This document shows positions 23,487 to 30,302 of a stretch of 48,260 nt of DNA, in pieces. Source of the DNA: Eubacteriales bacterium (GTDB taxonomy: Bacteria > Bacillota > Clostridia > Lachnospirales > Lachnospiraceae); assembly GCA_030524225.1 (NCBI GenBank), contig JAUNGV010000017.1, positions 1 through 48,260 of the forward strand, read 5' to 3'. Made by a program: the position numbers and the translations under genes. Numbering within the stretch: the first letter of the stretch is position 1; each line of letters starts with the position of its first letter. The notes beneath the pieces are model-generated. The model saw only the letters and a program-made list of their open reading frames with translations, made no database searches and had not been told where the DNA came from.

Positions 23487-24164
23487 ATGGCGGAAGAGTT
23501 GCAGCGGGAACTTCATGTGGATACCGCCTTTACTGTTCCGATCTTTGGCGGAATCGAGATCTATGAGTCGGTGGTGATCACATGGCTGATTATGGCAGTG
23601 CTGGTCGCTCTGGCAATCTGGCTGACACGGGGCCTTAAGGTGCAGAATCCGGGAAAACGGCAGGTGGCGGCGGAGTACATCGTGACATGGCTGGATCAGT
23701 TCACAGCCGGAATGTTGGGTGAGAAAGGGAAGCAGTACGGGCCGTATCTGGCGACGGTGCTGATCTATATCGGTTTTGCGAATCTGATCGGCATTTTCGG
23801 GTTCAAGCCGCCGACGAAGGATCTGAACGTGACGGTGGCGCTGGCGCTGATGAGCATTATCCTTATCGAGGCGGCGGGCATCCGGGCCAGAGGACCGAAG
23901 AAATGGCTCAGGAGTTTTGCGGAGCCGGTGGCGGTCGTTACGCCGATCAATGTGATGGAGATTTTCATCAGGCCGCTCTCGCTGTGTATGCGATTGTTCG
24001 GAAACGTGATCGGATCCTTCGTGATTATGGAACTGATCAAAATGCTGATTCCGGTGGGCGTGCCGCTGGTGTTCAGTTTCTACTTTGATATTTTTGACGG
24101 TCTGATCCAGGCGTATGTATTCGTGTTCCTGACCTCCCTGTTTATTCAGGAGGCTGTGGAATAA
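23487..24164 (+). CDS. atpB: F1Fo ATP synthase subunit a
   Basis: Subunit a forms the two ion half-channels beside the c-ring. The 225-residue membrane protein has about five or six helices; the essential Arg lies in LSLCMRLFGNVIGSF, and the C-terminal helix FDGLIQAYVFVFLTSLFIQE is the conserved family end. ATG 23487 follows GGAAGTGAG. It heads the operon atpB-atpE-atpF-atpH/A-atpG-atpD-atpC. The 211-bp gap to atpE holds two related hairpins. Confidence 0.97.
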   Translation: MAEELQRELHVDTAFTVPIFGGIEIYESVVITWLIMAVLVALAIWLTRGLKVQNPGKRQVAAEYIVTWLDQFTAGMLGEKGKQYGPYLATVLIYIGFANLIGIFGFKPPTKDLNVTVALALMSIILIEAAGIRARGPKKWLRSFAEPVAVVTPINVMEIFIRPLSLCMRLFGNVIGSFVIMELIKMLIPVGVPLVFSFYFDIFDGLIQAYVFVFLTSLFIQEAVE

Positions 24165-24375: not shown

Positions 24376-24594
24376 ATGACTTTAACAGCAATCGGAGCGG
24401 GAATCGCAGCACTTTCAAGTATCGGCGGCGGACTGGGAATCGGACACGCGACGGCGAAGGCGGTCGAGGCGATCGCGAGACAGCCGGAAGCGGATGCAAA
24501 GATCATGAGAAATCTGCTGCTTGGATGCGCACTGGCAGAGGCGACAAGTATTTACGGCTTCGTAATCGGCGTTCTGATCATCTTCATGCTGTAG
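24376..24594 (+). CDS. atpE: F1Fo ATP synthase subunit c
   Basis: The c-ring proteolipid. The 72-residue product is two hydrophobic helices joined by the polar loop ARQPEA. The carboxylate is in LAEATSIYGFVIG on helix 2. Compared with Na+-type rings (for example Ilyobacter, with GVGQG in helix 1 and AEST in helix 2), this protein has GLGIG and AEAT: the Na+-ligand Gln is Ile and the Ser after Glu is Ala. That favours proton coupling (inference). ATG 24376 follows AAAGGAGGACAAAATC, a very strong site suited to a multi-copy subunit; an in-frame upstream Met at 24322 is not used. Confidence 0.97.
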   Translation: MTLTAIGAGIAALSSIGGGLGIGHATAKAVEAIARQPEADAKIMRNLLLGCALAEATSIYGFVIGVLIIFML

Positions 24595-25242: not shown

Positions 25243-27297
25243 ATGAAACAGGAAACGATGGAATACGTGAAGCGGCTGCGCGAGCGCGGACTGGCAGAGA
25301 GCGTTTTTAACGACGCCGATGTGATTTTCAGGACGATTCCGGAGATCCGTTCGCGTCTGGCGGATCCTTCGGTGCCGCTGGAGATGAGACATGCCGTGAT
25401 TGAGCGGATTTTTCCGCAGGAGATCAGAGATTTTCTCAAAATCCTCTGTGACAACGGAGATGTGGAACTCTGGGATGAGATCAGAGAACAGTTCTGCCGC
25501 GTGCTGACGGCGACGCTCACTTACGTCACGCCGCCCACGCAGGAGCAGAAGGCGGGATTTCTGGCTTTTATCACGCAGAAATATGATTGCGGTCAGATCC
25601 GTCTCGAGGAAAAGGAAGACCAGAGTATTGGCGGCGGTTTCATTCTGCAGGTCGGCAAGGACGTCTATGACTGGAGCGAACAGGGACGGCGCAGTCAGCT
25701 GGAGAACAGGATGAACGAGGTGAAGAACACGCTCGGCGGCGCAGACGGACAGGAGAGCACGAAGGATATTATCTCGATTCTGCGGGCAAGCGTCGAGGAA
25801 TTCAATCTCGAGGTGCAGAATAAGGAGATCGGCTATGTGAAGACGGTCGGAGACGGGATCGCACAGATCGACGGAATCGATCACGCGATGTACGGAGAGG
25901 TCGTCATGTTCGACAACGGCGTCAAGGGAATGGTGCAGAATGTGGAGCGCCATCAGATCGGCGTCATTCTCTTTGGCTCCGAAGGCGAGATCGGCGAGGG
26001 AAGCCGCGTGATCCGGACGGGCCGGCAGGCGGGCGTCCCGGTGGGCGAGGGATTTCTGGGCAGAGTGGTGAACGCCCTCGGAGAGCCGATCGACGGCAGA
26101 GGAGAGATCGCGGCCAGCGATTACCGTCCCGTGGAGGAACCGGCTCCCGGAATTATCGACCGCAAATCGGTGAGCCAGCCGCTGCAGACCGGTATCCTCT
26201 CTATCGACGCGATGTTTCCCATTGGCCGGGGCCAGCGTGAGTTGATTATCGGGGACAGGCAGACCGGCAAGACGTCGATTGCGACGGATACGATTCTGAA
26301 CCAGAAGGGCAAGGACTGCATCTGTATCTATGTGGCGATCGGGCAGAAGGCCTCCACAGTGGCGAGAATTGCGACGATGCTGGAGAAGCATGGGGCGATG
26401 GAGTATTCGGTGATCCTCTCCGCCTCTGCTTCTGATCCCGCCCCGCTCCAGTACATTGCGCCGTATGCGGGCACTGCGCTGGCGGAGTACTTCATGCACA
26501 AGGGAAAGGACGTCCTGATCGTCTACGATGATCTGAGCAAACACGCGGTGGCGTACCGGGCTCTCTCCCTCCTGTTGGGCAGATCGCCGGGACGCGAGGC
26601 GTATCCGGGCGACGTGTTCTATCTGCACTCCCGTCTGCTGGAGCGCTCCAGCAGACTCTCGGATGCGCTGGGCGGAGGATCCATCACGGCGCTTCCTATT
26701 ATAGAGACCCAGGCGGTCGATGTGTCGGCGTATATTCCCACGAACGTGATTTCCATCACGGACGGACAGATTTTCCTCGAGAGCAGTCTCTTCTTCTCGG
26801 GGATGCGTCCCGCGGTCAACGTGGGTCTGTCGGTCTCGCGTGTCGGCGGCGCGGCGCAGACCAAGGCGATGAAAAAGGCTTCGGGGAGTCTGCGTATTGA
26901 TCTGGCGCAGTACCGCGAGATGGAGGCGTTCACACAGTTCAGCTCCGATCTGGATCCGGCGACGAAGGAACAGCTGGAACAGGGCAGCGTTCTGATGGAA
27001 CTGTTAAAACAGCCGCTGTGCCATCCGCTTTCGATGCACGAGCAGGTCATCACGCTCTGCGTCGCGACGAACCGTCTGATGATCGACATTCCGGTGGCAC
27101 AGGTCAAGGATTTTCAGGGGAAAATGCTGGCGTGGTTTGAAAAAGAGCACGCGGAGATCGGCAGTGGAATAGAGAGAACGGGAACCCTCGACGATGAGGT
27201 GAAGGAGAGAATCCTGAGCGCGGCAAAGGAGTTTAAACAGAGTTATCTGAAGGAGGCGGCGGATGGCGACAACAAGAGAGATCAGGGATCGCATTAA
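25243..27297 (+). CDS. atpA: F1Fo ATP synthase delta-alpha fusion
   Basis: A single 684-codon frame encodes subunit delta followed by subunit alpha, normally two genes. Residues about 1-155 are delta: a somewhat short N-terminal helical domain ([20 protein letters not shown]) and the C-terminal motif [18 protein letters not shown]. Residues about 185-684 are alpha, with the P-loop GDRQTGKTS near 337-345 and the Arg-finger region [13 protein letters not shown]. The alpha N-terminal helix [14 protein letters not shown] directly follows a short linker ([12 protein letters not shown]). Delta is single-copy and alpha three-copy in F1, so the fusion raises a stoichiometry problem; an internal start at Met157 could supply free alpha. 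The gene overlaps atpG by 35 bp. Confidence 0.93.
25701..25713 (+). promoter_or_regulatory. Possible internal ribosome-binding site and start for free alpha subunit
   Basis: GGAG (25701-25704) lies six bases before an in-frame ATG (25711-25713), exactly between the delta and alpha portions. Initiation there would give a 528-residue alpha protein, close to the normal length of about 500-510. Internal GGAG-ATG pairs can arise by chance, so this is suggestive only. Confidence 0.4.
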
Positions 27298-28168
27298 CAG
27301 CATCGGCGACACCTTAAAGATCACGAACGCCATGTATCTGATCTCCTCGACGAAGCTGCGCAAGGCCAAAAAGGCCCTGCTCGACACCGAGCCCTATTTC
27401 TATTCGATTCAGTCCCTGATGGCGCGGCTGATCCGTCATCTGCCGGAGGGATTCTCCCATCCGTATCTGGATTTCAGGACGGATATAGAGAAATCGCAGC
27501 TGCGGCGCGGCTATATCGCCGTGACCGCCGACAAGGGGCTGGCGGGGGCGTACAACCACAATGTCCTGAAGCTGGTGGAGGAGAAGCTGGCGGAGCACTC
27601 GAACAACATGCTCTTCGTGGTCGGCGAGGTCGGCAGGCAGTACTTTGAGCAGCGAGGGATTCCGATCGACGAGCAGTTCCACTACACGGCGCAGAATCCC
27701 TCGCTCCACCGCTCACGCATGATCACGGCGCGGATGCTCGATCTGTATTTCAGACGGGAGATCGACGAGGTGTATATCGTCTATACCAGAATGAAGAACA
27801 GCCTGCAGATGGAGACGGAGATCGTGCAGCTTCTGCCCCTCAACAAGCTGAACCGGGAAACGTTTGACAAGGCGGTCAGCGCCGGTGTGACACAGCAGGA
27901 TTTCAGGATGGAGCCGTCCCCCAAGGCGGTCATTGACAATATCGTGCCGAATTATCTGGACGGTTTTATCTACGGCGCGCTGGTGGAGTCGTTCTGCTGC
28001 GAACAGAATGCCAGAATGATGGCGATGGACGCGGCGAACAAGAACGGACAGCAGATGAAACACGATCTGAGTGTGGAGTACAACCGCGTCCGGCAGGGAC
28101 AGATTACCCAGGAGATCACGGAGATCTGCGCAGGCGCCCGCGCCCAGAGAAGCGGACAGGGGAGCTGA
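27263..28168 (+). CDS. atpG: F1Fo ATP synthase subunit gamma
   Basis: The rotor subunit of F1. The 301-residue protein starts with the coiled-coil signature [20 protein letters not shown] and ends with the counterpart helix ([20 protein letters not shown], then [17 protein letters not shown]). The middle includes the conserved [14 protein letters not shown] segment. ATG 27263 lies inside the end of the alpha frame with GGAGGCGG in front, so translation should be coupled. Slightly longer than the usual 285-295 residues. Confidence 0.96.
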
Positions 28169-28256: not shown

Positions 28257-29744
<1,488 letters not shown>

Positions 29745-29882: not shown

Positions 29883-30302
29883 ATGGCGGATACATTCTTT
29901 AGTTTGAAAATCATAGCCACCAACAAGGTGTTCTACGACGGCAAGGCGTTGCAGCTCATCGTCCCGACGCTGGACGGAGGGTACGGCATCATGGCGCACC
30001 ACGAGGAGCTCCTGCTCGCCGTGGAGGTCGGGGAACTGGACGTGCAGAAGACGGACGGATCGTGGGAACGGGTCGCCGTGGGCAACGGCTCCGTGCAGGT
30101 GGCCCATAACCGTGTCATCGTGCTGGTGGATACCGCCGAGACGCCGGAGGAGATCGACAAGCGCCGGGCCGAGGAGGCGATGGAGCGGGCTAAAGAGCAG
30201 CTTCGTCAGAAAAAGAGCGTGGGAGAGTACCGCATTGCCCAGGCGTCGCTGGCCAGAGCACTCTCGCGTCTGCGGATGAAGGACAAGGGCCGGTATCTCT
30301 GA
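29883..30302 (+). CDS. atpC: F1Fo ATP synthase subunit epsilon
   Basis: The central-stalk subunit that can inhibit ATP hydrolysis. The 139-residue protein has the N-terminal beta-sandwich (SLKIIATNKVFYDGKALQLI, GYGIMAHHEELLLAVEVGEL) and a C-terminal two-helix domain (DKRRAEEAMERAKEQLRQKK). ATG 29883 follows GGGAGGCAGT. It is the last gene of the operon; the hairpin at 30409-30458 is the nearest candidate end. Confidence 0.96.
   Translation: MADTFFSLKIIATNKVFYDGKALQLIVPTLDGGYGIMAHHEELLLAVEVGELDVQKTDGSWERVAVGNGSVQVAHNRVIVLVDTAETPEEIDKRRAEEAMERAKEQLRQKKSVGEYRIAQASLARALSRLRMKDKGRYL

Follow-up and report, generated by a model that had tools for sequence, protein, structure and literature searches.

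Introduction

F-type ATP synthases are treated as having one delta subunit and one peripheral stalk per F1, and the fused form found in mycobacteria joins delta to the b subunit. The one-stalk rule was broken in an engineered enzyme, Bacillus PS3 deltaDeltaN-alpha FoF1, in which the N-terminal domain (NTD) of delta was removed and the remainder was fused to alpha (PDB 9jc1; Ueno et al., 2025, PMC12229609). The fusion is reported to carry as many as three stalks and a subunits, with 0, 1, 2 and 3 stalks in 15, 51, 26 and 8% of particles, respectively, and to have a proton-to-ATP ratio of 5.8 vs 3.0. The paper argues that the delta NTD, which lies on the threefold axis, restricts the stalks to one. 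Natural fusions that retain only the C-terminal domain (CTD) of delta are named in its Discussion, for Acidaminococcus fermentans and under UniProt G4Q3K6 and A0A1I2C5T3; the A. fermentans fusion is stated to lack the NTD, and the others to be similar.

Delta-alpha fusion as a kind is already known, with the CTD-only natural form in print. A sequence-only reading of the locus described here had known of no characterised delta-alpha enzyme, a statement corrected by the engineered PS3 enzyme and the natural fusions named in PMC12229609. It had also called the resulting number of deltas odd; the oddity stands, and the several peripheral stalks of the engineered enzyme are one of its outcomes. In the literature searched, mostly without subscription papers, we found no description of a fusion with full-length delta. 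Here we describe such a gene in a 48,260-nucleotide stretch of an Eubacteriales bacterium genome (GCA_030524225.1, contig JAUNGV010000017.1), referred to as the window.

Domain structure of the fused gene

The fused gene lies in an F1Fo operon that is otherwise complete, in the order atpB, E, F, delta-alpha, G, D, C, and no atpH was found in this operon by open reading frames and Pfam (Table 1). Gene order and domains are those of the standard bacterial F1Fo operon, the difference being that no stop or start separates delta from alpha. As in the mycobacterial b-delta fusion, delta is joined to a neighbouring subunit; the partner there is b, whereas atpF in the window is separate and encodes 169 residues.

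Table 1. Features of the F1Fo operon and of the delta-alpha fusion gene in the window.
Feature	Position	Strand	Basis and remarks
atpB, a subunit	23487..24164	+	PF00119
atpE, c subunit	24376..24594	+	Sequence and position; a piece starting one codon late gave no Pfam match
atpF, b subunit, 169 aa	24659..25168	+	PF00430
atpHA, delta-alpha fusion, 684 aa	25243..27297	+	ATG start, TAA end, stop-free 684-codon ORF
Delta NTD, residues 1-84, six predicted helices	25243..25494	+	AlphaFold, OSCP match, BLAST
Delta CTD, residues 87-164, GGFIL and YDWS motifs	25501..25734	+	Pfam, AlphaFold
In-frame ATG, codon 157, after GGAG; possible internal start of free alpha, not conserved	25711..25713	+	
Linker, residues 165-172, weakly modelled, between helices 146-164 and 173-185	25735..25758	+	AlphaFold
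Alpha N-terminal helix H1, residues 173-185	25759..25797	+	AlphaFold, H1 pattern comparison
Alpha core (beta-barrel, nucleotide-binding and C-terminal domains), from residue 193	25819..27294	+	Profiles, structure matches
atpG, gamma subunit	27263..28168	+	Pfam; 35-base overlap with fusion 3' end; AAGGAGG upstream of ATG
atpD, beta subunit	28344..29744	+	Pfam
atpC, epsilon subunit	29883..30302	+	Pfam

The Pfam OSCP family (PF00213) matches residues 22-157 of the fusion over profile positions 26-172 of 172 (E 7e-14), spanning both delta domains, with a score of 52.7 bits that exceeds the family cut-off of 22.3. The alpha part is matched by ATP-synt_ab_N (195-260), ATP-synt_ab (317-532) and ATP-synt_ab_C (539-664), and NCBIfam atpA (TIGR00962) covers residues 172-668 with 767.2 bits against a cut-off of 484.45. 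Two further models score below their cut-offs: the delta equivalog TIGR01145 (residues 1-166, 44.8 bits, cut-off 57.5) and the alternate F1 alpha model TIGR03324, which we take as the criterion for an N-type ATPase (606.7 bits, cut-off 750.5). Reading frame and domain matches agree with the original description of a 684-codon frame carrying delta and then a complete alpha with no intervening stop. This confirms that the gene encodes a single protein made up of a complete delta, a short linker and a complete alpha.

An AlphaFold model of the fusion, built with 36 sequences (mean pLDDT 77.3, pTM 0.63), places six helices at residues 3-84, then the CTD (87-164) and H1 (173-185), with the alpha core from residue 193 onwards. 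Within the linker, which differs between species in the alignment of fusions, residues 167-170 have pLDDT below 50. The hydrophobic pattern of H1 is retained in separate (n=54), full-length (n=30) and CTD-only (n=76) rows, and the spacing from the delta motif to the GDG of alpha is 61 residues in the window, against medians of 57 in full-length fusions (range 45-74, n=29) and 56 in CTD-only fusions (range 51-75, n=75).

In a Foldseek search with the model, chains of the engineered 9jc1 fusion took ranks 1, 2 and 5. 9jc1 is also the best solved sequence match over the junction, while three solved alphas score higher over the whole chain; the VIA-align rows span mainly residues 192-675 and are therefore no test of the delta part. 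In both the engineered and the window chain the delta CTD is joined to the alpha N-terminus, H1 is kept and the spacing is similar (55 in the 9jc1 chain, counted by hand), but the window keeps the whole of delta, whereas the engineered chain has no NTD and a designed linker. The natural fusions of PMC12229609 are likewise delta-alpha, but are described there as without the NTD in A. fermentans and similar in the others.

Recurrence of the fused junction

Fused junctions were found in 73 of the 80 best loci from named genomes, comprising 27 full-length delta-alpha, 45 CTD-alpha and one tandem-CTD arrangement (L114), with separate genes in the remaining 7; this search was seeded on the fused junction and favours fusions, and the counts are no measure of prevalence. 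Architecture was labelled by the distance from ORF start to Walker motif, and a recount with another motif agreed, six loci missed by that motif keeping their first label. Two loci with a fused start and a shortened frame (L056, L118) and three that extend past the locus end (L061, L073, L089) were counted as CTD-only for the junction, and the start of L043 was set by hand at an ATG downstream of a TTG. By record title, full-length fusions occur in Oribacterium, Lactobacillus rogosae (presumably a Lachnospira), Agathobacter ruminis, Lachnospiraceae GAM79 and Ruminococcus, and a CTD-only fusion in Butyrivibrio.

In evenly drawn samples, at least 29 of 243 class genomes and at least 13 of 249 phylum genomes had an uninterrupted fused frame, with the window's genome in both figures; both counts were made by eye and are lower bounds, with G129 omitted for a frame that is short near a contig end. 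All 20 cases retrieved from the 28 others in the class were fused, two of them full-length, as were all nine phylum cases from outside the class, every one CTD-only. Among 36 congeners, many of them incomplete, eight carry a fused operon akin to that of the window, and no further full-length fusion was seen. All eight of these operons are without the NTD, as in the engineered PS3 fusion, and the window is unlike both; their chains begin 10-15 residues before the conserved CTD alanine (counted by hand).

That sequencing or assembly error joined two genes is exceedingly improbable. The source is a draft assembly (127 contigs, 81% complete), which leaves some room for error, but independent genomes, some of them single-contig, read through this junction without interruption, so the frame is not a missed stop in one assembly. 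The recurrence answers the question, raised when the frame was first noticed, of whether the fusion is conserved in relatives, and it argues against the missed stop or frameshift feared then. Relatives with separate atpH and atpA, the other sign of an artefact proposed then, do exist; within the genus this arrangement belongs to a standard operon that is distinct from the fused one and branches far from it, and at least three of the eight fused congeners (G004, G030, G015) carry that operon as well. The delta-alpha fusion is in all likelihood functional.

On a different contig, the window's genome contains one more fused operon, L037, which is CTD-only with a chain of 588 residues and has a G+C of 0.568 vs 0.51-0.58 along the window; no standard atpA was found in this 81% complete assembly. 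The c-subunit frame of L037 has 118 residues, with a long N-terminal extension that is signal-peptide-like by eye, and c-subunit frames of similar length are present in related operons. Two weaker matches to the alpha part of the fusion, elsewhere in this genome on contig C100 (32308-34539; L005, L006), may be a V-type ATPase.

History of the delta N-terminal domain

The trees were built as "quick" runs with SH-aLRT support. The alpha tree contains 167 rows, with 13 loci lost to the motif search and L056, L089 (both short) and L111 (by hand) left out. CTD-only forms stand outside the main Lachnospiraceae/Oscillospirales clade in three places (L134; L129-133; L149-157), among separate-gene lineages. 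Inside the main clade separate, full-length and CTD-only forms are intermixed, so the tree does not fix the number of fusion events there. The standard operon of the genus, with separate delta and alpha, forms a distant, separate lineage. Members of family f1 adjoin named Lacrimispora and Butyrivibrio rows, and we infer from this that the family is probably Lachnospiraceae. In Lacrimispora and its kin the separate atpH and atpA overlap or almost touch, which leaves fusion only a small step away.

A second tree, of alpha, beta and gamma combined, was restricted to 59 rows with recognisable beta and gamma, taken from a limited set of row ids and including one outgroup row; 21 hand-listed near-duplicate, long or broken rows, Oribacterium L049 and the Ruminococcus rows were left out. 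In this tree the window clusters with seven CTD-only operons, six from congeners together with L068 (support 99). A single clade of all CTD-only and tandem rows was rejected (516 log units worse, p-AU 4e-86), while a clade of the seven CTD-only rows without the window is compatible with the data (p 0.49). Because the single CTD-only clade is rejected, these sequence trees indicate repeated loss of the NTD, loss followed by regain, or repeated origin of CTD-only fusions; they do not separate loss from regain.

Among the rows compared by BLAST, the window NTD is most similar to the NTDs of other full-length fusions (up to 48.6%). Identities to separate deltas of the same operon clade are 28-43%, and those to the standard deltas of the genus are 27-33% over 49-66 residues. 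Regain from the genus's standard delta is not favoured, the NTDs of full-length fusions being closer, and this closest resemblance fits inheritance of the NTD rather than regain.

The ratio of NTD to CTD divergence is 1.13 in Lachnospiraceae full-length fusions including the window (66 pairs) and likewise 1.13 in separate deltas (102 pairs), vs 1.32 in the L079 group (15 pairs) and 2.11 in Ruminococcus (28 pairs); these pairs lack independence, and the wide divergence among the 66 pulls their ratio towards 1. In the close pair L050-L057 the dN/dS of the NTD is 0.08. Constraint on the window NTD looks ordinary, and the higher ratios of Ruminococcus and the L079 group suggest that the role of the NTD may differ between lineages.

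Complement of alpha and delta subunits

In five single-contig genomes (G081, G295, G122, G190, G318) we found one alpha and one OSCP match each, both in a CTD fusion, and in G263 (120 contigs, 98% complete) one of each, both in a full-length fusion (alpha E <= 1e-100, OSCP E <= 1). In the genomes that hold L058 and L063 (G543, G544; no completeness figure), the full-length fusion was likewise the single match for alpha and for OSCP (alpha E <= 1e-150, OSCP E <= 0.01). PF00213 revealed no split-off delta NTD elsewhere in the CTD-only genomes scanned. The OSCP match in G190 covers more of the profile, but it crosses a TAA and overlaps the b gene, and the extra part was judged unrelated; a weak additional PF00213 match in G180 (E 0.11) does not reach the cut-off.

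These genomes bear on whether the chain is cut in the linker after synthesis, which would leave three ordinary alphas and a conventional enzyme. Such processing would suit a segment (residues 165-172) that is weakly modelled and variable between species, but in CTD-only fusions it would leave a delta without the head-docking NTD, although that CTD belongs to the sole delta match in each of the five single-contig genomes; we consider it quite improbable.

The same complement bears on a mixed head of one fused delta-alpha and two free alphas, with a single delta and a single stalk. Free alpha could come from a second operon: a standard operon accompanies the fusion in the complete GAM79 genome and in Butyrivibrio hungatei, and GAM79 and most other genomes of one scan could supply alpha in this way. 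It could also arise by internal initiation, for which the window offers the ATG at codon 157 behind GGAG. The ribosome-binding energy of this site (-6.4) is like those of true starts, and internal initiation is therefore possible in the window gene; strong junction sites occur in L064 (-9.3) and L122 (-7.7) as well. However, a scan for start codons and ribosome-binding sites in 29 full-class and 53 CTD-only rows found no conserved internal start for a free alpha, and linker sites were no stronger than sites in the alpha body: mean best energies for linker, alpha body and true starts were -3.6, -3.8 and -6.0 in full-class rows (window and tandem L114 included) and -4.0, -4.3 and -5.5 in CTD-only rows. 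In L058 and L063, whose genomes yielded no alpha or OSCP match besides the fusion, the best sites are weak (-4.1 and -3.3) and lie at different places. A mixed head is, on balance, unlikely.

Proposed architecture and significance

The fused frame, its recurrence, the full domains, the lack of atpH in the operon and the genomes in which no other alpha or delta was found together suggest that every alpha probably carries a delta, giving three fused chains per F1 head. The uncut delta-alpha chain would be the alpha of the enzyme and would fill all three alpha positions, bringing three deltas rather than one. Each delta CTD, sitting on its own alpha, could anchor a b dimer. In the full-length form one NTD would occupy the central dimple on the threefold axis and two NTDs would be displaced. 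The tether would remove the need for central docking, and relatives would have dropped the NTD more than once. Loss of the NTD would leave the architecture of the engineered enzyme, which can accommodate as many as three b2 stalks and a subunits and has a higher proton-to-ATP ratio.

For the full-length form of the window we favour one main stalk, and for its CTD-only relatives several stalks have about an even chance; fewer stalks would be expected in the window enzyme because it retains the NTD. A window enzyme that itself has two or three b2 stalks and a subunits is a somewhat doubtful alternative, compatible with three fused chains per head. Provided that every alpha is fused, each has a b-binding CTD at a spacing near that of the engineered chain, but the window retains a constrained NTD, and an NTD on the threefold axis limits the stalks to one by the argument of PMC12229609.

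A broader reading, which we hold tentatively and at rather less than even chance, is that ATP synthases with several stalks, two or three a subunits and a higher proton-to-ATP ratio recur in nature among anaerobic Bacillota. The window enzyme would then be a living intermediate, with three complete deltas per head and a stalk number that depends on whether the NTDs still compete for the central axis.

The architecture of the engineered enzyme appears to have arisen in nature more than once, and in some genomes it accounts for the only F-type alpha and delta found. The full-length form has fusion but not domain removal, the two steps combined in the engineered enzyme, and it allows a test of whether stalk number and the proton cost of ATP change on tethering by itself or only once the NTD is lost. 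It is a natural relative of an engineered motor that holds its stator at several points and may show how such motors evolve.

Unusual relatives

Several related loci carry further departures from the standard subunit arrangement. In L114 (2411-4411) two tandem delta CTDs precede alpha in one frame of 666 residues with two OSCP stretches, and the fused chain of L144 (4226-6142) opens with three nearly identical copies of a segment of about 21 residues, ahead of the delta domain. A frame near an atp operon in L126 (10653-12585), whose start we take to be Cas9-like, extends past the locus end. Two CTD-fused operons, L138 (6115-8499) and L139 (7596-9956), encode gamma, a rotor subunit, and beta, a stator subunit, in one frame of 794 and 786 residues, respectively. 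A true tether of rotor to stator would be mechanically odd. Both subunits of the L139 chain are matched by Pfam, and ahead of beta the two frames have in common an internal ATG (MDQK) that follows a purine-rich stretch.
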